Of a stretch of 24,014 nucleotides of DNA, positions 3,670-22,198 are shown piece by piece; within the stretch, counting starts at the first letter, position 1, and every line of letters starts with the position of its first letter. The DNA lies in IMG/VR virus record IMGVR_UViG_3300034355_000063, positions 1 through 24,014 of that record; one strand, written 5' to 3'. Under the pieces are notes generated by a model. That model had not been told where the DNA came from. It made no database searches and saw only the letters and a program-made list of their open reading frames with translations. This DNA comes from a virus. The position numbers and the translations under genes were made by a program.

Positions 3670-3884
3670 ATTTTTCGCAGGCTCTTGACCTGATCAAGTG
3701 GGGTCAGCCAATGACGCGCGAGGCTTGGGGTAATCCAGCCGTTTACGTCGTCAGAGATCCTCCCGTCCCAGGTGATGATTATAACATCAATAAACGATTG
3801 GCTGATGGCGCGATGGTTCCTTGGGAGCCAACGGTTGATGACATTATGGCTAATGATTGGGCCACCACAGTAAGGATTGATTGA
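3666..3884 (+). CDS. Tad2-like / DUF2829 protein (possible anti-Thoeris)
   Basis: The 72-aa protein shows the DUF2829 layout: start MNFSQALDLIKWGQPMTREA, then W21 and a strand (AVYVV), and the C-terminal signature VPWEPTVDDIMANDW (51-65). This family was renamed after Tad2, a phage protein that sequesters the cyclic ADP-ribose-type signal made by Thoeris defence TIR proteins, so the effector is not triggered. Members are short and oligomeric, and this length is typical. Ligand-binding residues cannot be confirmed by eye, and many family members are untested, so the family is fairly sure but the activity is inferred. It sits between TerL and portal, overlapping the preceding gene by four bases (ATGA). 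Confidence 0.75.
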   Translation: MNFSQALDLIKWGQPMTREAWGNPAVYVVRDPPVPGDDYNINKRLADGAMVPWEPTVDDIMANDWATTVRID

Positions 3885-3886
3885 TC

Positions 3887-6235
3887 ATGCCGATGACGCC
3901 GGGCTTGCCCTACAATATTCGTCAAGAGCAGCAAGCACCGGCAGGGCTTGGCGCCGCTGAAGATCTGATGGTTGAGATTGAAGAGGGGCCGGACAAGCCA
4001 AAGACTGATGAGAGCGGCAAGATCTTAACGATTGAGCATGATGACGGCTCCATCACGGTATCGCTTGATGGCCGTTCGCTTGATGGCGATTCAGATGCCG
4101 CTCGCGCAGAAGAGTGGTTTGGCAATCTCGTTGAAGACATAGACCAAGCAACGCTTGGCCGCATTGCAGAAGATCTGCTTCGCGGCGTTCGCGATGACTT
4201 AGATAGCAGGCAGGATTGGATTGAAGACCGCGCCCAAGGCATGAAGCTTTTGGGCTTGAAGGTTGAGATACCAGGTTTGCAGGGCGCCGTTGACGGTGCG
4301 CCTGTTGAAGGCATGAGCCGCGTTCGCCATCCATTGCTACTTGAAGCGGTGCTCCGCTTCCAAGCCAATGCGCGCAGCGAGTTGCTTCCAACTGACGGTC
4401 CTGTGAAGGTTCGCGATGATGCGGATAAAGATTCGCCAGAGCAGCAACAGCTTGCTGATGCGTTGGAGAACGATCTTAATCAGTATCTGACGGCGGTAGC
4501 CAAAGAATATTATCCTGATACTGACCGCATGCTTTTCATGCTTGGCTTTGGCGGCACGGCCTTCAAAAAAGTTTACTTCTGCCCATTGCGCGGCAGACCT
4601 GTAAGCGAGACGGTCGATGCTGATGACTTGATCGTTAACAATGCGGCGACGACGCTAGACGACGCAAAGCGCATAACGCATCGCGTCTTCATGCGCCCGT
4701 CAACTGTGCGCAGATTGCAGATCCTTGGCGTTTATCGCGACATTGATCTGACAACGCCAAATCAATATCAGGCCGATGAGGTGCAACGCCAGAAGGCAGA
4801 CGTTCAAGGTATCTCGATTGATTCGATGAACCCGGACGATCGCGACCGGGAGATCTATGAGATTTATTGTGAGCTCGACATACCGGGCTTCGAGCACAAA
4901 TATAAGGGGAAAGAAACTGGCCTCGAAATTCCGTATCGCGTAACGATCGATGTGAGCTCGCGAGAGATCCTCTCAATAGTGAGGAACTACGATGAGCCAA
5001 CGGGAGAAGAAGGCGACGAACTGCCTGAGTCCAGAAACAATTTTATCAAATATACTTTTGTTCCTGGTATGGGTTTTTACGATATCGGTTTACTTCATAT
5101 TTTGGGTAATACCACAAACGCGGTTACTGCCGCTTGGCGCGAGATGCTCGATGCCGGCATGTATGCTAACTTCCCCGGCTTCCTTATGGCGGATACTGGC
5201 GCGCGTCAGAATACGAATATATTCCGCGTTCCGCCGGGCGGTGGGGCGTTAGTTAAGACGGGCGGCATGCCAATCAATCAGGCCATTATGCCATTGCCTT
5301 ACAAAGAGGCTGGAGCAGGCTTGATGAACCTTGTCACTAATATTGTTGAGACGGGACAACGCGTTGGCGGCACGGCTGAAGTTGCTGTTGGCGAAGGGCG
5401 CAACGATGCGCCTGTCGGAACAACGATTGCGTTGATTGATCAGGCGACGAAGGTTCTCAACTCAGTTCACAAGCGCATGCATGCTTCGCAGGCAGAAGAG
5501 TTCCAGTTGCTTGTGCGCTGCTTCCGCGAACATCCAGAAAGCTTCTGGAAGAAATGCCGCAAGCCATCAATTCAATGGAGCGAAGCTATCTTCATGCAAG
5601 CAGTCAATGACTGCGAGCTTGTTCCGCAAGCAGATCCAAACACGGCAAGTCATACGCAGCGCGTCATGAAGATCATGGCGTTGAAGCAATTGCAGCAACA
5701 AAATCCAGCTATGTATGATCCAAAGGCGATCGACATGGCGGCGTTGAAGGCGATGGGCTGGAGCAACCCAGAACAGTTTATGGTTCCGGCTGAGACGCAG
5801 CAACAAGTCCCGCCGGAAGTTCAGAAGGCGATGGCAGAGCTTCAGATCTTGAAGCAGGAGGCAGACGCCAAAACGGCGGTAGCCCAGGCTTCGGTCCAGG
5901 AGTCGCAAGTCGATGGCCAAGCGCGTCTGATGGATGCAGAGACCAAGCGCATCCTTGCGCAAGCCAAGTTGCAAGAGACGCAAGCTAAAAGCGGCGTAGA
6001 AGCGCCACGCGGCGAAGATCCTTGGCGCCAGGTAGACGCAGAAGCAAAGATGATGGACGCAGAGACGCGCCGCATACTTGCAGAGCTAAAGGCTGCCGAT
6101 CTTGGTCTTAACGTAGATAAGATGCAGATGGAATCAGATCACCGCGAAGCTGATCGCATTCTTGATTCGCATCATCGCGCTGCTGATCGTGCAACGCAGT
6201 TGGCTAAAAACATTAATCCTGTTGAGGGTGAATAA
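3887..6235 (+). CDS. Portal protein, P22-like
   Basis: A 782-aa protein that forms the dodecameric channel at the head vertex through which DNA is packaged and ejected. Family landmarks include SRVRHPLLLEAVLRFQANA near residue 145, GFGGTAFKKVYF near 230, and the conserved GTAEVAVGEGRNDAPVGTT and HKRMHASQAEEF block near 505-550. The last 150 residues are rich in Gln, Ala and charged residues with a repeated DAET[KR]RILA unit (two copies), consistent with the long helical barrel of P22-type portals; P22 gp1 is about 725 aa, so this one is slightly longer. ATG 3887 lies ten bases after AAGGA; the upstream TTG at 3881 is possible. Its stop overlaps the next start (TAATG). Confidence 0.9.
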   Translation: MPMTPGLPYNIRQEQQAPAGLGAAEDLMVEIEEGPDKPKTDESGKILTIEHDDGSITVSLDGRSLDGDSDAARAEEWFGNLVEDIDQATLGRIAEDLLRGVRDDLDSRQDWIEDRAQGMKLLGLKVEIPGLQGAVDGAPVEGMSRVRHPLLLEAVLRFQANARSELLPTDGPVKVRDDADKDSPEQQQLADALENDLNQYLTAVAKEYYPDTDRMLFMLGFGGTAFKKVYFCPLRGRPVSETVDADDLIVNNAATTLDDAKRITHRVFMRPSTVRRLQILGVYRDIDLTTPNQYQADEVQRQKADVQGISIDSMNPDDRDREIYEIYCELDIPGFEHKYKGKETGLEIPYRVTIDVSSREILSIVRNYDEPTGEEGDELPESRNNFIKYTFVPGMGFYDIGLLHILGNTTNAVTAAWREMLDAGMYANFPGFLMADTGARQNTNIFRVPPGGGALVKTGGMPINQAIMPLPYKEAGAGLMNLVTNIVETGQRVGGTAEVAVGEGRNDAPVGTTIALIDQATKVLNSVHKRMHASQAEEFQLLVRCFREHPESFWKKCRKPSIQWSEAIFMQAVNDCELVPQADPNTASHTQRVMKIMALKQLQQQNPAMYDPKAIDMAALKAMGWSNPEQFMVPAETQQQVPPEVQKAMAELQILKQEADAKTAVAQASVQESQVDGQARLMDAETKRILAQAKLQETQAKSGVEAPRGEDPWRQVDAEAKMMDAETRRILAELKAADLGLNVDKMQMESDHREADRILDSHHRAADRATQLAKNINPVEGE

Positions 6236-8679
6236 TGTCCCGCATCATTGAGCGCGCTCTATCAATCATTAATGATAATCTGAAGGATCAGACCACAAGC
6301 TTTGCTGATCCTGTCAGCATCAAGCCAATGGCGCGTGGCGGCGATGTTAAAGGCCGTATTTTGCAGGACGAATATCCTACGCATTATCTTCCGCATATCG
6401 GTCGCCAAGTGATGGCTGATGGCGGTGCACCTGTTAAGGGCTTTGAGGGACGCGTATTTAGCCCACCTCCTGTTGAGGAGCCTGTCTCCGCTGAAGGCGT
6501 AGAAGCTTATCACGGTTCTCCGCATGAGTTTGAAAATTTTGATATAAGCAAGATTGGCACGGGCGAAGGCGCGCAAGTTTATGGGCATGGACTATATTTT
6601 GCTGGGAATGAAAATGTAGCAAAGTATTATAGAGACTCTCTTACTGATCCCGACAATGTTCCTTTGCATTTTAAGGGAAAGCCTGTTGATACAGTTTGGA
6701 ATGATGAAATATCTGATCGATGGAAAGATATTGTAAAAAAATTACCAAAAGATCATGAGGATGATTTTCAAACAGTTATGGGTAATCTTTCTCAAATTAA
6801 CAATATGTCTGACCTAAAGCATATTCGCGCTAATTTAGATCGCAAACAAAATAATATTCTTGATAAAATTGTTTTACCGGAACTTTCTAAACCAGAGATA
6901 GGTTCCGGTCATATGTATGAAGTTCGTATTGATGCGCATCCAGAAGAACATTTGCTTGATTGGGATAAGCCACTAAAGGATCAGCATCCTAATGTTCTAG
7001 CTGCATTTAACAAATCTGTTATTCCTATTAAAGATGACGAAGATAAGATGATACATGAGATGTATGGCAATAAGGCCGCTCATGAATATCTTGGGTTATT
7101 TGATAGAAGCAAGGGCTCTCAGGCATATAAGACGTTTGCTGAACATCTTGGTGGACCTGAGAAAGCAAGCGCCGCCTTGGCAGAAGCTGGCATTCGCGGC
7201 ATCCGTTATCTTGATGCTGGCTCACGCGGTCAAGATGAGCAAAGCGGCTCGCATAACTACGTCATATTTGATCCGAAGCACATTAAGATCAAGCGCCGTT
7301 ATGCAGAAGGCGGAGAGATTCCAGAAAAGGATGATGAGGGAATAGCAGCTTATGCTTTTGGTAATTCTATCCCGCATCTTGATCAAAGAATAAAAAATGA
7401 ATATCAAGGTTCGCATCAATCTCCAGGGCCAGAAAATGGCGCGCCTTTATGGAGAATGCATGATTTATATCCAGATGATTTATATTCCTCAAATGGATTT
7501 AGATATTACGCAGATTATGGCCTCCCTTACGATAGAGAAGGGTATAACAGGGCGATATCCTATGTAAATCGGCCAAATAGCTTCGTAACAATTTATAGGG
7601 CGGTTCCTAAAGATACTTCTATTAAAAATATAAATCCAAGTGATTGGGTTACTTTAACAAGAAGCTACGCAAAAGATCATGGAGAATCCACTCTTGGGGG
7701 CGAATATAAGATATTAAAAAAAATGGTTAGAGCCAGAGATCTTTTTACTCATGCAGATTCTATCCATGAATTTGGATACAATCCACAGCCTCGCGTATCT
7801 GATGACGAAATAGTTTCAAGAATGTCCGATGAAGAGGCTAAAAATAAATTAGAAAGATTGTCTCCACAGGCAAGGACCACCTTAAAGCGAGCTCTTGAAA
7901 ATAGATTAGCGCCAAAGAAAGCATACGGCGGAGATGTTGAAGATAACGATATTCAACTTTCTCCTGATGCTGAGGCCATAGATGAAATGCCTGATCAGGC
8001 GTTCAATTCTGCCAAGACATCACGCAATCAGATCCCTGCATTGTTTAATAGCCCAGCGTTTGAACGCAATAAAGGAAGCCGCAATCTAGATTACGGCGGT
8101 GGCGCTTTCGACAAGGGATCAGAATATCTTGCGCAAGAGCATGGCGTTGATAGCCAAGTTTACGATCCTTTCAATCGATCAAAAGAGCATAATGATTTTG
8201 TATTGAAGGGCTTTAAGAAAGAACCCGCAGATACAGCAACAGTTGCAAATGTGCTTAATGTGATTGCGGAGCCAGAAGCTCGTATGCATGTCATTAAACA
8301 AGTCCATCAACATATTAAGCCAGACGGCAAAGCTTACTTCACAGTTTATGAAGGCGACGGGAAAGATAAGAACAGCGGCAACTCGCGCATGACGCGCGAT
8401 GGCTGGCAAGAGAATCGCCCAACGCATTCTTATGTCGAAGAGATCAAGCAAGTGTTCCCTGATGTGCGTCTTTCCGGCAAGACGATCATCGCCAGTAAAA
8501 AGCCAGCGAAAGCTTACGGTGGCTCTATCCCTGGACCAAAGCTTACGGAAGAAAACGCCGATGACTTTGCGCGTCGTTTGATCGCTTGGACGTTCGCCAC
8601 GGCGCCACTGTTCCAGCGCGCTGCTGGCGGCTCTGTTATTGATGATCCACTTGATGTATTATCCAAACTTCGCCGTTGA
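6235..8679 (+). CDS. Mosaic polyvalent-type protein: ADP-ribosyltransferase-like, second ART-like, and methyltransferase-like domains
   Basis: An 814-aa multi-domain protein. Residues 90-352 resemble the ART domain of phage polyvalent proteins: YHGSPHEFENFD (92-103), GHGLYFAGN (117-125), GIRYLDAGSR (322-331), NYVIFDP (341-347). Residues 370-520 look like another ART-type module: IYRAVP (453-458), DWVTLTRSYA (470-479), SIHEFGY (509-515). Residues 590-757 show class I SAM-methyltransferase features: LDYGGGAF (618-625), VYDP (642-645), ANVLNVIAEP (671-680). Six Gly-Gly motifs (35-36, 63-64, 359-360, 565-566, 762-763, 798-799) fall at or near module boundaries. The ART regions are more A/T rich than the flanks. 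Lying between portal and head genes, it is probably a virion or internal protein acting on host targets, which is inference. The first domain is fairly sure, the third probable, the second tentative. Confidence 0.7.
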   Translation: MSRIIERALSIINDNLKDQTTSFADPVSIKPMARGGDVKGRILQDEYPTHYLPHIGRQVMADGGAPVKGFEGRVFSPPPVEEPVSAEGVEAYHGSPHEFENFDISKIGTGEGAQVYGHGLYFAGNENVAKYYRDSLTDPDNVPLHFKGKPVDTVWNDEISDRWKDIVKKLPKDHEDDFQTVMGNLSQINNMSDLKHIRANLDRKQNNILDKIVLPELSKPEIGSGHMYEVRIDAHPEEHLLDWDKPLKDQHPNVLAAFNKSVIPIKDDEDKMIHEMYGNKAAHEYLGLFDRSKGSQAYKTFAEHLGGPEKASAALAEAGIRGIRYLDAGSRGQDEQSGSHNYVIFDPKHIKIKRRYAEGGEIPEKDDEGIAAYAFGNSIPHLDQRIKNEYQGSHQSPGPENGAPLWRMHDLYPDDLYSSNGFRYYADYGLPYDREGYNRAISYVNRPNSFVTIYRAVPKDTSIKNINPSDWVTLTRSYAKDHGESTLGGEYKILKKMVRARDLFTHADSIHEFGYNPQPRVSDDEIVSRMSDEEAKNKLERLSPQARTTLKRALENRLAPKKAYGGDVEDNDIQLSPDAEAIDEMPDQAFNSAKTSRNQIPALFNSPAFERNKGSRNLDYGGGAFDKGSEYLAQEHGVDSQVYDPFNRSKEHNDFVLKGFKKEPADTATVANVLNVIAEPEARMHVIKQVHQHIKPDGKAYFTVYEGDGKDKNSGNSRMTRDGWQENRPTHSYVEEIKQVFPDVRLSGKTIIASKKPAKAYGGSIPGPKLTEENADDFARRLIAWTFATAPLFQRAAGGSVIDDPLDVLSKLRR

Positions 8680-8680
8680 T

Positions 8681-8701
8681 GGGCGAGACGGGGACGCCCG
8701 T
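8681..8701 (+). other. Short intergenic hairpin
   Basis: The 45-base gap after the mosaic gene can fold as GGGCG/CGCCC (8681-8685 with 8695-8699) or alternatively ACGGG-GACG-CCCGT (8688-8701). The A-run that follows gives no U-tract, so it is not a standard terminator on this strand. It may mark an mRNA boundary before the Shine-Dalgarno GGAG at 8714-8717. Confidence 0.3.
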
Positions 8702-8724
8702 AAAAATCCGGCCGGAGAACAAGA

Positions 8725-10002
8725 ATGTATGAATTAGCTAAAAGCTCACGCGATAAGATGAAGGCGAAAGCCCGTCGTCTCGCTAACCCAGGTGACTATT
8801 ACAAAGACCAAGAGGTCTCCAGCGCGGATTGGTCTCCAGCGCCTCCTCTCAAAACTGAGATGAAGACCGGCGCGCGTCCAATTATGAAGCCATCGTCCAA
8901 AGGCACAGGCGAATCATACGCCGCTCGCGATACGAAAAAGGCTATTGGCGCAGACATGAAGCGCGGCGCTTTTAAAGCCGGCGGCGCTGTAAAAGGCAGC
9001 AAGATTCCTTCCGCAGAAGAGACGCTATCCACAAAAGCGATCGTTGGTTCTAACCCTATTAAGCCAACGCGCGGCGCAGCTGGCCACTATAAAAAAGGCG
9101 GCGCGGTTAAAAAGGCTGATGGCGGCGATGTTGATGCTTCAAAAGCTCCGCAAAGAACCACAGCTTCGCAAAATGTTTATTCGCCTAAATATAATGAAGA
9201 TGCTGTAAACAAAGCGATTGCTTCATCAAATAGATCTGGCCAACGCATTAGCGGCAAAGAATCATCGGCTATTAAAGCTTTGTTGAAGGGCCGCACTGGC
9301 CGCGCTGGCGGTGGATCGGCTCTTGAAAAAATGGTCGGCAAACCAAAAACCGGCAGCGACATGAGCCAAGTCGGAAAGATGGGAACTGCTAACTATACGC
9401 AAGAAGAGAAGGGCGCTCTTAATCGCGTATTAAACAAAGAAGATTCGTTGCCAGAACCAGCTGAAGCAGCAGAGCGTTCCGGAAAATATCAAAACTACAA
9501 GAAGGGTGGCCGTGCAGAACGCAAAGCAGGCGGCCGCACTCGCGCCAAGGGCAAGACGAATATTAACATCGTTATCGCCGCTGGCCGCAAAGCTGGCCCA
9601 GAAGCTCCAGCGTTGGATATGGCCGCTGGCATGCCTTCGGCTCCTGCAAACATTCCTGTGCCTATGCCAGGCGCTGGCGCTCCGCCTCCAGCTGCAATGC
9701 CTATGGGCGGCCCTCCAGGCGCTCCTACGCCAGGCATTCCAGGTCTGCCTCCAGGCCGGAAGGCTGGCGGCCGCATCACCAAGATTGCAAGCTCATACAA
9801 GGATATGCAGGCTGGCTCTGGCAGCGGCGAAGGCCGTTTGCAGAAAACTGATATCGCCAAGAAGCATCATGACGCGCCTGCGCGTAAGGCTGGCGGCAAG
9901 GTCTACAGTTCCTATAAGGACATGGATGCGGGTGCTGGTTCCGGTCCCGGTCGTCTAGAAAAGACTGAGATCGAAAGGAAACAGAGAGCTCGCGGCAAGT
10001 AA
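8725..10002 (+). CDS. Basic low-complexity phage protein with repeated Gly-Gly motifs
   Basis: A 425-aa, Lys/Arg/Ala/Gly-rich protein, mostly disordered. It has eight copies of a [KR]-x-G-G-x motif (for example KAGGAV 84-89, KKGGAV 123-128, KKGGRAE 259-265, KAGGRI 346-351, KAGGKV 388-393), a short hydrophobic strand in GKTNINIVIAAG (276-287), a Pro/Gly/Ala-rich linker (about 300-344) and a near-duplicate C-terminal unit SSYKDM..G.GSG.GRL.KT.I at 356-378 and 395-416. GGAG at 8714-8717 supports the start. Proteins of this style occur next to portal or coat genes in related phages, without known function. The positive charge fits binding to packaged DNA or scaffold; this is inference. Confidence 0.75.
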   Translation: MYELAKSSRDKMKAKARRLANPGDYYKDQEVSSADWSPAPPLKTEMKTGARPIMKPSSKGTGESYAARDTKKAIGADMKRGAFKAGGAVKGSKIPSAEETLSTKAIVGSNPIKPTRGAAGHYKKGGAVKKADGGDVDASKAPQRTTASQNVYSPKYNEDAVNKAIASSNRSGQRISGKESSAIKALLKGRTGRAGGGSALEKMVGKPKTGSDMSQVGKMGTANYTQEEKGALNRVLNKEDSLPEPAEAAERSGKYQNYKKGGRAERKAGGRTRAKGKTNINIVIAAGRKAGPEAPALDMAAGMPSAPANIPVPMPGAGAPPPAAMPMGGPPGAPTPGIPGLPPGRKAGGRITKIASSYKDMQAGSGSGEGRLQKTDIAKKHHDAPARKAGGKVYSSYKDMDAGAGSGPGRLEKTEIERKQRARGK

Positions 10003-10316: not shown

Positions 10317-10709
10317 ATGTCAGCCATGTTGATGGATCATGAGATTGATCCAAAAGAAAAGATTTTAAAAGAGCTTGGAGATCTGTCCAATATAGAAATA
10401 TTCAACAATCAGATTCTTGTCGCCGTCTATGTGCGCCCAGAAAAAACTAAGAGCGGCTTGTATCTTTCTGATTCGATGCGCTCAGAAGACCAATTTCAAG
10501 GCAAAACTGGCTTGTTAGTTGGCATGGGGCCGGCTGCTTTTAATGATGAAAGCGGTCAGTGGTTCAATAACGCCAGTTTTAATCTGCATGATTGGCTTGT
10601 GTTCCGGCCTTCTGATGGCTGGAGCATAAAAGTTAACGGCGTTTTGTGTCGAATGATGGCTGATACGCAAGTAAAGGCAAGAATTTCCGGCCCAGATCAG
10701 GTTTGGTGA
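10317..10709 (+). CDS. Phage GroES-like co-chaperonin
   Basis: The 130-aa protein matches the GroES layout: first strand IFNNQILVAVYV (28-39), a mobile-loop region EKTKSGLYLSDSMRSED (42-58) with the hydrophobic LYL that in GroES contacts GroEL, GKTGLLVGMGP (62-72) like the GroES VLAVG turn, a HDWLVF strand (91-96) in place of the VGDIVIF strand, and a final VLCRMMADTQVKARI. Phage co-chaperonins such as T4 gp31 replace or supplement host GroES so that GroEL can fold the large coat protein. An N-terminal extension of about 25 residues and a C-terminal SGPDQVW are extra. Its position just before scaffold and coat fits that role. Start ATG has AGGGGA seven bases upstream. Confidence 0.75.
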   Translation: MSAMLMDHEIDPKEKILKELGDLSNIEIFNNQILVAVYVRPEKTKSGLYLSDSMRSEDQFQGKTGLLVGMGPAAFNDESGQWFNNASFNLHDWLVFRPSDGWSIKVNGVLCRMMADTQVKARISGPDQVW

Positions 10710-13068: not shown

Positions 13069-13980
13069 ATGGCTGTTAATCTTTCTGCCATTAAAGACCT
13101 TCTCCTCCCCGGTCTCCGTGGGGTTGAAGGCAAATACGAGCAGATCCCGTCGCAATACGACAAGATCTTCACGAAGCATGATTCAAAAATGGCTTTGGAA
13201 CGCACCGCTGAAATGCGCTTCCTTGGTCTTGCACAGCTGAAAACCGAAGGCGCTCAGACCGCTTTCGATAACGGCGCTGGCGAACGCTACGTCTATAACC
13301 AAGAGCATACTGAAATTGCTCTAGGCTATGCGATTACGCGTAAGGCAATCGATGATAACCTGTATAAGACACAGTTTATGCCATCGAACCTTGGCCTTAT
13401 TGAATCGTTCCAGCAGACGAAGGAAATTTACGGCGCCAACGTGTTAAACACGGCGACGACGTATAATGCTTCGATCGGCGGTGACGGTAAGGCCCTTATC
13501 GCTACAGACCATCCTATCGATGGCGGCACGGTTGCTAACCGTCCTGCGGTTGATGTTGATCTGAACGAAGCGACGTTGTTGAACGGCATGATTTCGATCA
13601 GAACAAACTTTAAAGACCAAGCTGGTCTTAAAGTATTTGCTCGCGGTCGTCGTCTTGTTGTTCCGCCTGCTCTGGAACCAGTTGCAATTCGTCTTACTAA
13701 GACTGAACTGCGCCCAGGAACGGCAGATAATGACGTCAATGCGATCATGATGACTGCTGGCGGATTGCCAGAAGGCTACATGGTCAACGACTATCTGACG
13801 TCTGCTCGTGCATGGTTCTTGCTCACGAACATTGATGGGCTCTCATATATGGAGCGCGTAAAGTTCGAGTCCGACATGCAAGTCGATTTTGTGACTGACA
13901 ACTTACTCGTAAAGGGTTATGAACGTTACAGTTTCGGCTATTACAACTGGCGTTCGATCTTCGGATCTTTCCCAACGTAA
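13069..13980 (+). CDS. Major capsid (coat) protein, gpT-like HK97 fold
   Basis: The 303-aa protein starts MAVNLSAIKDLLLPGLRGV. The typical coat features of the Mu gpT-like family are visible: an early YEQIPSQYDKIF segment (23-34), the insertion-loop and spine region with TRKAIDDN (90-97), the hallmark ATDHPIDGGT (145-154), and the C-terminal LLTNIDGLSYMER...DNLLVKGYERY. These fold as HK97-type subunits that form the icosahedral shell. No N-terminal delta domain is needed because a separate scaffold gene exists upstream. AAGGA sits just before ATG 13069. A perfect 10-bp hairpin lies ten bases after the stop. Confidence 0.9.
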   Translation: MAVNLSAIKDLLLPGLRGVEGKYEQIPSQYDKIFTKHDSKMALERTAEMRFLGLAQLKTEGAQTAFDNGAGERYVYNQEHTEIALGYAITRKAIDDNLYKTQFMPSNLGLIESFQQTKEIYGANVLNTATTYNASIGGDGKALIATDHPIDGGTVANRPAVDVDLNEATLLNGMISIRTNFKDQAGLKVFARGRRLVVPPALEPVAIRLTKTELRPGTADNDVNAIMMTAGGLPEGYMVNDYLTSARAWFLLTNIDGLSYMERVKFESDMQVDFVTDNLLVKGYERYSFGYYNWRSIFGSFPT

Positions 13981-14573: not shown

Positions 14574-14834
14574 ATGGGTGCTTACACAAGAACTGATTCT
14601 AAGAAGGTTCAAGGCGCTTCTGCTTCTTCAAAAAAATCAGGAACCGAAGACGATTCATTCGTTACGGCTGAACGCTTCAAAAAAGGCGGTAAGGCAGAAA
14701 AAGCTCACGGCGGCTGCATGAAAAAAGGCGGCAACGTAATGTCGAAAGCTGCGCGTCCTGCTCGTAAGAGCGGCGGCGGCGTTCTTTCGTCAGCTGCTTC
14801 TGGCTCACCTCGCGGTAAAGCTTCGCACTACTAA
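14574..14834 (+). CDS. Small basic protein with Gly-Gly motifs
   Basis: An 86-aa Lys/Ser/Ala/Gly-rich protein starting MGAYTRTDSKKVQGASASSK. It has four motifs like those of the mosaic and 425-aa proteins: KKGGKAE (36-42), AHGGCM (44-49), KKGGNV (50-55) and KSGGGV (65-70), and ends GSPRGKASHY. It appears disordered. AGGAG precedes the ATG after a 12-base gap from the previous stop, and a strong terminator follows. The shared motif across three proteins suggests a common partner or processing enzyme. Function unknown. Confidence 0.7.
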   Translation: MGAYTRTDSKKVQGASASSKKSGTEDDSFVTAERFKKGGKAEKAHGGCMKKGGNVMSKAARPARKSGGGVLSSAASGSPRGKASHY

Positions 14835-17493: not shown

Positions 17494-19762
<2,269 letters not shown>

Positions 19763-19763
19763 T

Positions 19764-20642
19764 ATGAGCACAATTTCATTATACGGCGACACATCTGGAT
19801 ACGTTAATATAACGGTTCCGCTGACGATTGCTGTCCCTTGGACAGTGACGCTTCCATCTGCCGCTCCGACAGCGAACGGTCAATATCTTTCCTCGACAAC
19901 TGCTGGCGTTACTTCATGGTCGTCGCTTGGACCTGCGACATACGCAACTATTGTCGGCTATACGACAACGGTTACATCAGCAAGTCCCGTTACGCTGACA
20001 TCTTCAAGCACATTTTATCAATTCTTTACTGGCTCAACGGCGCAGACAGTTGTTCTTCCAGTAACAAGCACACTTGCGACGGGTTGGACTTTCAATATCG
20101 TCAATAATAGCACTGCTAATATTACGGTTAATTCGTCAGGCAGCAATCTCGTTGCAACATGCTTGCCCGGCACAACGCTTCGTCTTATTTGTATCCTGAC
20201 ATCAGGCACTACCGCCGCGTCTTGGGATTCTGAAGTTGTTGGCTTTACGACTGTAACCGGCACAGGAAATAATGTTTTAGCAACGGCACCAACAATTACT
20301 AACCCAACAATCACCGATTACATTGAAACATATTTCAACATCGGAACTGTTACTACATCAGCTTCGCCAACTCTTTCAAACGGAACTGTGCAAACATTGA
20401 CGCTAACGGCGTCAACAACATGCACAGTTACAATGCCAACGGCGACTGCTGGCAAATCATTTATACTTCTTGTTCGTCAAGCTGCATCAACAGGAAATGG
20501 CGCAGTGACGTGGTCGTCAGTTAAATGGAATAGCGGAGGAACGCCAACTGTTACCGCAACCGCTGGCAGGATGGATATTTTTACTTTTGTTGCTGATGGC
20601 ACAAATTGGTATGGATCTGCCTCACAGGGATATACGCCCTAA
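19764..20642 (+). CDS. 292-aa beta-rich tail fibre protein
   Basis: Starts MSTISLYGDTSGYVNITVPL, two bases after the collagen fibre stop, without a clear Shine-Dalgarno, so it probably relies on reinitiation. It is Thr/Ser/Val-rich with repeats of fibre-like strands: PWTVTLPSAAPTANGQYLSS (25-44), a short motif often seen before fibre tips, QTVVLPVTSTLATGWTFNIV, and a second similar module (TTCTVTMPTATAGKSFILLV) ending FTFVADGTNWYGS. It appears to be two copies of a beta-prism or beta-helix module. No catalytic motif seen. Likely a fibre subunit or adhesin tip working with its neighbours. Confidence 0.75.
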   Translation: MSTISLYGDTSGYVNITVPLTIAVPWTVTLPSAAPTANGQYLSSTTAGVTSWSSLGPATYATIVGYTTTVTSASPVTLTSSSTFYQFFTGSTAQTVVLPVTSTLATGWTFNIVNNSTANITVNSSGSNLVATCLPGTTLRLICILTSGTTAASWDSEVVGFTTVTGTGNNVLATAPTITNPTITDYIETYFNIGTVTTSASPTLSNGTVQTLTLTASTTCTVTMPTATAGKSFILLVRQAASTGNGAVTWSSVKWNSGGTPTVTATAGRMDIFTFVADGTNWYGSASQGYTP

Positions 20643-22198
20643 TGTTTTCGGCGCTTAATTTCTTTCTTGCTGGTGGTGCGGCAAGATATTCAATTGTTGA
20701 AACATTTAATGCTTCTGGAAACTGGGTTGCGCCTACAGGCGTGACGCAACTTGATAGTTATTTAATAGTTGCCGGTGGCGCATCAGGCGGCGGCGGATAT
20801 GGCGGCGGGGGTGGTGCTGGCGGCTATGTTACCGGATCAAATCTTTCCGTTACAGCTGGTTCTTCATACACAGTATCCGTAGGCGGCGGTGGCACGGCCT
20901 CTGCTGGACAAGGCAATAATGGGAGCCCTAGCTCTTTTCCGGGTGCGACAACAGCAGTCGGCGGCGGTGGTGGAGGCGCTGTAGCAGCTGGGTCAAATGG
21001 CGGTTCTGGCGGCGGTGCTGGATATGGAACTTATCCGGGCGGAAACGGAACAGCACCACAAGGCTTCAAAGGCGGCGATGCGGTAAATTCTCCCGGTGTA
21101 GGCAGCACGGGCGGCGGCGGCGGCGCTGGAGCAGCTGGGGGCAATGGGACTTATACCCCAAACCCAAACAAATCAGGTGATGGCGGAATAGGCCTTAATA
21201 CTTATTCTGGCTATAGCGGTTATCTCGCAGGCGGTGGCGGCGGCGGCATTTATGGCCCAGGTGGAGGAACGGCAGGACTAGGCGGAAATGGCGGCGGCGG
21301 CAATGGGGCCGCAAGCGGCGTAGGTTCCAATGGAGCAGCTAATACAGGTGGTGGTGGCGGCGGCGGGGGTCCCGGTTCTAACAGCGGTGCAGGCGGGTCT
21401 GGAATTGTAATTTTAACTTATAAAATTGCCGCAGCTACAGCGATTACGTTCACTTCTACAGCTACTGTAAAAATTCCGACCGGCTGCACATCAATTGATT
21501 ATCTTGTTGTTGCTGGTGGTGGCGCTGGCGGAGATAATGCAGGAGGCGGCGGAGGGGCCGGTGGTTTTGTTACGGCATCAGGCATTGCCGTTACTGCTGG
21601 CAATACATTAACCGCGACAATAGGCGCTGGCGGCAATGCTGGTAATACGGGCAGCGCGCCCGGCGGCAATGGCAGCAACTCAACATTATCTGGAACGGCT
21701 CCATTTTCTACTGTAACCGCAACAGGCGGCGGCGGTGGTGGATATTACAATGGCAATGGAGCGAATGGTGGTTCTGGCGGTGGTGGTGGAGGAGGTTTTC
21801 CTTCTAATACAGCTGGAGGAACTGGTGTATCAAGCCCTGCTCGCCAAGGGTATGATGGCGGCACTGGCGGCTATTATAGCGCCAAGCGCAATGCCGGTGG
21901 CGGTGGTGGTGCGAGCATTAATGGAAATAACGGCGCTACGGGCCAAGCAGGAAATGGCGGCAATGGCCTAACATTTGGTGGCGTTTATTATGCAGGCGGC
22001 GGAGGTGGCGGCGGTAACGACGTAACCAATGTCGGCGCAGGTGGATTAGGCGGCGGAGGCAGTGGCGGCACTTTCCCAAGCACAATACCGGTAGCAGGAT
22101 CGCCTAATACAGGCGGTGGCGGAGGCGGAGGCGGATATCCGCCAAGCTATTATGGCACCAATGGCGGTTCTGGAATCGTAATCATTAAATTTAACTAG
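20642..22198 (+). CDS. Glycine-rich adhesin with two polyglycine modules
   Basis: A 518-aa protein that starts MFSALNFFLAGGAARYS. Two homologous modules follow: about 18-261 (entry ETFNASGNWVAPTGVTQLD, exit GGSGIVILTYK) and about 262-518 (entry ATVKIPTGCTSIDYLVVAGG, exit GGSGIVIIKF). Both interiors are long Gly-rich runs (GGGGGAGG, GGGGGGG) with Asn/Ser/Tyr-bearing turns. This resembles the polyglycine II sandwich of T-even-like phage adhesins such as S16 gp38, where Gly-rich helices display variable loops for receptor binding. The relation is by composition, not proven homology. The ATG overlaps the previous stop (TAATG). Paralogous to the gene at 23136. Confidence 0.75.
   Translation: MFSALNFFLAGGAARYSIVETFNASGNWVAPTGVTQLDSYLIVAGGASGGGGYGGGGGAGGYVTGSNLSVTAGSSYTVSVGGGGTASAGQGNNGSPSSFPGATTAVGGGGGGAVAAGSNGGSGGGAGYGTYPGGNGTAPQGFKGGDAVNSPGVGSTGGGGGAGAAGGNGTYTPNPNKSGDGGIGLNTYSGYSGYLAGGGGGGIYGPGGGTAGLGGNGGGGNGAASGVGSNGAANTGGGGGGGGPGSNSGAGGSGIVILTYKIAAATAITFTSTATVKIPTGCTSIDYLVVAGGGAGGDNAGGGGGAGGFVTASGIAVTAGNTLTATIGAGGNAGNTGSAPGGNGSNSTLSGTAPFSTVTATGGGGGGYYNGNGANGGSGGGGGGGFPSNTAGGTGVSSPARQGYDGGTGGYYSAKRNAGGGGGASINGNNGATGQAGNGGNGLTFGGVYYAGGGGGGGNDVTNVGAGGLGGGGSGGTFPSTIPVAGSPNTGGGGGGGGYPPSYYGTNGGSGIVIIKFN

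Follow-up and report, generated by a model that had tools for sequence, protein, structure and literature searches.

A polyvalent protein with conserved peptide tags in a variable slot behind the portal gene of an uncultured virus

Directly behind the portal gene of an uncultured virus lies a gene for an 814-aa polyvalent (multi-effector) protein, in which three enzyme-like modules are combined with short conserved peptides, and whose central part has been exchanged as an exact cassette in a close relative. We think it probable that this cargo protein occupies a plug-in slot at the portal, that the peptides, here called tags, load it into the head, and that its enzymes enter the host with the DNA. 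The window, that is, the whole stretch of DNA analysed, comprises positions 1–24,014 (24,014 nt) of the IMG/VR record IMGVR_UViG_3300034355_000063. A first-pass annotation of these letters had described a frame at 6235–8679, joining an ADP-ribosyltransferase (ART), an ART-like and a methyltransferase-like domain between portal and head genes, as an unusual protein and a possible packaged effector. The frame was recovered exactly (plus strand, ATG start), as was its place, and the motifs then quoted (YHGSPHEFENFD, GHGLYFAGN, GIRYLDAGSR, IYRAVP, DWVTLTRSYA, SIHEFGY, LDYGGGAF, VYDP and ANVLNVIAEP) are all in the translation. They go beyond chance, as the family matches given below and the hundreds of IMG/VR relatives of modules 1 and 2 attest. 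All features of the protein described here are on the plus strand.

According to ORFs, Pfam and PHROG, the genes are ordered as terminase (TerL), portal, cargo, a KxGG-repeat protein, a GroES-like protein, a probable scaffold and the major head protein (13069–13980). The portal protein (3881–6235, plus strand) is SU10-like (PF23899, E = 2e-11; PHROG 1216, portal, E = 6e-30), and its stop codon overlaps the ATG of the cargo gene by one base, position 6235. The scaffold gene was named by position alone, its sole PHROG match being a weak one to tape-measure proteins. The basic neighbour of the cargo (8725–10002, plus strand; 425 aa) contains many repeated K/R-A-GG motifs; it is present in all 33 comparable loci, with 46% identity, and no family match was found for it. 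Close to its C-terminal end it contains SSYKDMxAGxGSGxGRLxKT twice, and the same KxGG repeats recur in an 86-aa protein at 14574–14834 (FKKGGKAEKAHGGCMKKGGNVMS). The GroES-like co-chaperonin gene lies within the head operon at 10317–10709 (PHROG 3188, E = 9e-7), and GroES-like genes are likewise found 3' of the portal in Pelagibacter phage HTVC027P and Planktothrix phage Pag-Yong1. Farther downstream are a 508-aa protein with collagen-like GPTGATG repeats (18236–19762) and Gly-rich appendage-like proteins (20606–22198). The MAG contigs that hold portal relatives were binned to Opitutae, Rhizobiales, Gammaproteobacteria, Methylococcales and Verrucomicrobia. Among isolates, phages of Caulobacter, Pelagibacter and Roseobacter have portals of about 30% identity.

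Module 1 (residues 91–360; 6505–7314) was identified as an ART-PolyVal (HYD) domain, with predicted activity, by its family, its HYD residues and its structural matches. In Pfam, PF18760 (ART-PolyVal) matched residues 91–136 with an E-value of 6e-6 and 27.4 bits, under the curated cut-off of 31.2, and the same family was found in other slot proteins with E-values down to 2.7e-13. Residues H93 (6511–6513), Y121 (6595–6597), D327 (7213–7215), S330, R331 and N341 (7255–7257) are invariant in 46 viral relatives; these were collected with patterns built on the first motif, so that the invariance of H93 is partly selected, while the later residues lie outside the patterns. Iyer et al. (2017; PMC5512222) recognise polyvalent ARTs by an H in strand 1, a Y in strand 2 and a D in strand 5. 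In the AlphaFold2 model of module 1 (pLDDT 88.7), the first strand (E5-11) holds H93 and the second (E36-39) holds Y121; D327 comes just past E238-242, which by our reading of the model would be 'strand 5' of the core fold. This placement fits the HYD definition.

Structure comparison, which the first-pass annotation had proposed as a check, gave one significant match to the PDB for module 1 and none for module 2. The match of module 1 (Foldseek, E = 2.7e-5, probability 1.00, with a low TM of 0.31) was to 9k3a_B, a chain of the cyanophage A4 pre-ejectosome; among the non-significant matches below it, many were PARPs and diphtheria-class ARTs. The sequence of 9k3a_B is identical to ORF27L (1717 aa) of Anabaena phage A-4L, which contains YHGT at 1425 and GSGTYFS at 1446. 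When profiles were used to compare module 1 and the stretch of the A4 protein holding these two motifs, nothing was found, so that Foldseek and the H/Y motif are the only ties between the two proteins. Given the A4 match, a fold of the module 1 type is therefore seen inside a phage capsid. Searches of PDB sequences with modules 1 and 2 returned chance matches only.

Module 2 (residues 387–518; 7393–7788) is an R-[S/T]-E ART-like domain, for which the earlier call is plausible rather than firm. PHROG 2579 matched residues 387–520 with an E-value of 3e-30, the match covering its positions 338–465 of 472, and 485 places of this large phage family were confirmed in IMG/VR. The domain stands alone as a 438-bp gene beside regA in a Straboviridae Vibrio phage, is also found alone in mycobacteriophages, and elsewhere is fused into long proteins. 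In 57 sequences H393, Y411-P412, D414, Y416, R454 (7594–7596), D469-W470, Y477, H481-G482, S508, E511 (7765–7767) and G513 are invariant; thus R454 and E511 are kept in 57 of 57, and position 472 (7648–7650; T in the window) is T or S in all of them. The model is confident (pLDDT 91.7), and among its fold matches in the PDB, none of them significant for any solved ART (best E = 0.63, TM 0.36), the top three and many later ones were solved R-S-E ARTs. Judged by these residues and the model, module 2 is ART-like with an R-[T/S]-E site and has a somewhat better than even chance of being a real ART. The label 'ParB C-terminal domain' is inherited from PHROG 2579, of which module 2 matches only the C-terminal part, and the invariant residues of that part indicate an ART-like enzyme, not ParB. 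For an abundant phage domain that bears the name 'ParB C-terminal', an identity as an ADP-ribosyltransferase-like enzyme thus seems more likely.

Module 3 (residues 586–757; 7990–8505) is, by family and motifs, firmly a class I SAM methyltransferase of predicted activity. Residues 609–715 matched PF13489 (Methyltransf_23) in Pfam with an E-value of 1e-6 and 29.0 bits, above the cut-off of 27. The motifs D619xGGG, D644PFNR and N672VLNVI hold part of a set of residues invariant in 38 relatives (D619, G621-G623, D644-P645, R648, H652-N653, N672, L674-I677, T720 and Q725), as expected for SAM-binding motifs. These relatives are mostly embedded in long proteins. No match to the cargo protein was found in NCBIfam or PADLOC.

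A portal search of IMG/VR gave at least 598 relatives, of which 80 were retained. Wherever the sequence was long enough, almost all loci had at least one long ORF between the portal and the KxGG protein, and the sizes of these ORFs differ widely (about 350 to 1650 aa). Coverage of the window proteins was compared in the 33 loci that extend 5 kb or more beyond the portal. The portal was kept in all 33 (median coverage 0.98, 73% identity), and the GroES-like and scaffold genes were present in 26 (median coverage 1.00); the median coverage of the cargo was 0.11. Similarity to the cargo peaked solely at residues 41–60 (61% of loci) and 761–800 (56%), with 3–13% over nearly all of the enzyme parts. 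A scan of 46 slot proteins detected domains of the polyvalent type: ART-PolyVal, Methyltransf_23, GP88, PBECR5, LPD23, GNAT, a DUF6782 peptidase, DUF7178 and endolysin-type PHROGs.

A natural swap of such content was found. Contig IMGVR_UViG_3300032227_000583 (L005/L281) has 92.4% DNA identity to the window over 3887–6425, which holds the portal and the first tag, and 91.9% over 7918–9074, which holds the methyltransferase, tag 2 and the next gene; across 6426–7917 (plus strand) no DNA similarity between the two was found. The edges of this swapped cassette are the MADGG that ends tag 1 and the AYGG ahead of the methyltransferase. About 620 unrelated residues stand in place of both ART-type modules, and the methyltransferase is 98% identical. 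The same first edge was seen in L257, with 82% DNA identity to the window up to 6433 and divergence thereafter. The exact trio of domains was found in this virus alone, in contigs that are 100% identical; L002, L003 and L004, being 100% identical, are probably one virus and were not counted as independent support.

The conserved parts of the slot proteins are short. An N-terminal segment of the window protein, MSRIIERALSIINDNLKDQTTSF...MARGGDVK (6235–6351), is common to many of them and resembles the C-terminal tag. It is followed by tag 1 (residues 40–66; 6352–6432), GRILQDEYPTHYLPHIGRQVMADGGAP, whose profile matches reach E-values of about 1e-20 and whose consensus, G-[RH]-[LIV]-L-x-D-x-[YF]-P-T-H-Y-[LM]-P-x-V-G-R-Q-V-M-A-x-GG (among relatives also GRLLxDxYPTHYLPxVGRQVMADGG), was matched by 26 of the 60 downstream proteins that served as representatives. 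Tag 2 (residues 760–794; 8512–8616), AYGGSIPGPKLTEENADDFARRLIAWTFATAPLFQ, with the consensus AYGGAI..(L)..DPEDFARRLIxWSFAxAPLF, was present in 30 of the 60 and, by DNA pattern, in 40 contigs. The C-terminal tag (8626–8676), GGSVIDDPLDVLSKLRR, with GGSVIDxALDVLSKL, was found in 21 of the 60, and in some members its profile also matches GSIIDRALD at the N-terminus.

An exact DNA pattern for HYxPxVGRQVM detected tag 1 in 81 contigs among 2.9 million searched, and in 68 of the 69 with at least 1 kb upstream a portal gene lay upstream within about 3 kb. The tag starts anywhere from ORF residue 16 to 1336 and occurs once per locus in 134 of 135 loci and twice in the other, the loci being overlapping and partial and hence not 135 independent cases. 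Among slot loci tags 1 and 2 can stand in either order, and in seven (L017, L018, L023, L024, L027, L046 and L048) each lies on its own ORF of a neighbouring pair, as for separable signals and not for one folded domain. L046 and L027 have tag 1 in the first ORF and the methyltransferase with tag 2 in the second; the gene that is fused in the window is thus divided here. Tag 1 was encoded by 41 distinct DNA versions in which codon third positions are free; selection therefore acts on the peptide. A sizeable part of the slot proteins is without tag 1 (e.g., L028, L040, L047 and L050), and neither tag 1 nor tag 2 was found in the more distant slots L071, L072 and L078–L080. Used as a 27-aa query, tag 1 found no isolate phage, short queries being insensitive. 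A weak form (KYLPDIPRQVHADGG) is present 3' of the portal in phage MW202675 (L347, 10304–17804; portal 67%). This phage has three polyvalent-like proteins in a row 3' of its portal, of which the first carries that weak tag and the third ends in GHIDRALSLTSRYT, like the C-terminal tag.

From position, tags and swap, we infer that a packaged effector is the best account of the cargo protein. It would be translated together with the portal and taken into the growing head through tag 1, near its N-terminus, and through tag 2 and the GGSVIDxALDV tag, near its C-terminus, these tags binding a component of the head, scaffold or portal that is conserved. At infection the cargo would exit together with the DNA, and host targets would be modified by its two ADP-ribosyltransferase-type domains, which would use NAD+, and by the SAM methyltransferase. 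The HYD and R-S-E ARTs would act on host proteins as T4 Alt does. We propose that the constancy of the tags reflects that of their docking partner, and that variation in host defences lies behind the exchange of the enzymes, each as a unit, at AxGG junctions. A broader version, to which we give rather less than an even chance, is that the two or three short peptides serve a widespread group of phages as a general code for loading, so that any enzyme set between them would be packaged and injected. Equally tentative is the analogy by which such a code would be comparable to the trafficking domains of polymorphic toxins, reduced to wandering tags of 15–35 residues, with an interchangeable effector slot at the portal.

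The junctions themselves allow another account of the same cargo. Outside tag 1, AxGGx[VIP] was observed 103 times against 7.6 expected by shuffling, a 13-fold enrichment; the portal proteins of the same loci, a control of similar total length, had 6 per 59,439 aa. In the window protein the motif marks six domain edges (residues 35, 63, 359, 565, 762 and 798). The junctions may thus be protease sites, and the conserved peptides remnants or spacers freed when the protein is cut into separate enzymes, in the head or after entry. Metallopeptidases were proposed in PMC5512222 to process polyvalent proteins, and one slot protein carries the putative metallopeptidase DUF6782. However, no protease was identified within the window, and cleavage needs no 25-residue peptide kept at 60–78% identity, so we consider this unlikely in place of docking, with which it is compatible, as both can be true. 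An adenovirus-protease-like GG cleavage was considered and dropped because the hydrophobic residue is one position off.

That the cargo is a structural part of the ejection channel or connector, with degenerate enzyme-like domains serving as structural modules, would suit the pre-ejectosome chain matched by module 1 and a slot that abuts the portal gene. It is improbable, as relatives all keep the catalytic H/Y/D and R/[TS]/E residues and the SAM motifs unchanged, and wholesale replacement between 92%-identical phages is not expected of a structural part. We give a similarly small chance to a protein made late and acting unpackaged in the infected cell, for example in superinfection exclusion or host shut-off, with tags that bind a host or phage cytoplasmic partner. 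Relatives of module 2 do occur on their own outside the structural regions of Vibrio and mycobacterial phages, but the cargo gene has a fixed place in the head operon and a one-base overlap with the portal, tag 1 was found almost nowhere but behind the portal, and related architectures have virion precedents. The swap boundaries fall at the tags, as recombination or packaging sites in the DNA would have it, but the freely varying synonymous positions of tag 1 in its 41 versions largely refute that explanation, which we rejected as very improbable.

Packaging of the cargo protein by its tags would matter beyond this virus. Injected phage enzymes are diverse, yet cargo selection is understood for very few; with the tag constant and the centre swappable, the recognition of cargo can be tested directly. 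Tags 1 and 2 also provide a sequence handle for finding injected effectors across uncultured phages and, if docking is true, would serve as a signal for loading proteins into phage particles in the laboratory.

Several known systems can be compared. Multi-enzyme polyvalent proteins beside virion genes were already published (Iyer et al. 2017; PMC5512222), and their describers took the vicinity of virion genes as a sign of packaging. As in that class, the window protein combines functionally disparate domains in one polypeptide (ART-PolyVal, Methyltransf_23 and module 2), including an HYD-type ART, and its gene lies close to those for virion proteins in a portal-terminase phage, here TerL, portal, GroES-like, probable scaffold and head protein; it differs in having neither the zincin peptidase nor the MuF domain described there. 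The first-pass annotation's 'unusual' thus does not hold for the class, nor for the exact trio, which is one mosaic absent from a close relative; it does hold for a feature that the annotation lacked, the conserved short tags with a swappable centre. This frame around the modules looks new: a term search of PMC5512222 found no conserved tags, AxGG junction pattern or portal-adjacent swappable slot, and the tag-and-slot organisation was not found in the open-licence papers searched.

The cyanophage A4 pre-ejectosome protein shares the fold matched by module 1, but is encoded after tail-tube genes, not behind the portal, and has no detectable sequence similarity. The Dar proteins of P1 (DarA/Hdf and followers) counter restriction, are loaded into the head and co-ejected, and are linked to head assembly (PMC12810830); the proposed cargo would resemble them in head loading and co-ejection, although no Dar domains were detected in it. 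In T4, very diverse internal defence proteins share only a capsid-targeting sequence (PMC3012670). The tag described here, of about 27 residues, is not bound to one place in the chain and accompanies multi-enzyme cargo; the likeness to these proteins and to Alt would be one of logic only, a conserved short loading sequence joined to highly variable injected defence or ART proteins. Finally, in phage PTXU04 the knock-down of a putative polyvalent protein of 2,198 aa strongly reduced plating (PMC11879866).
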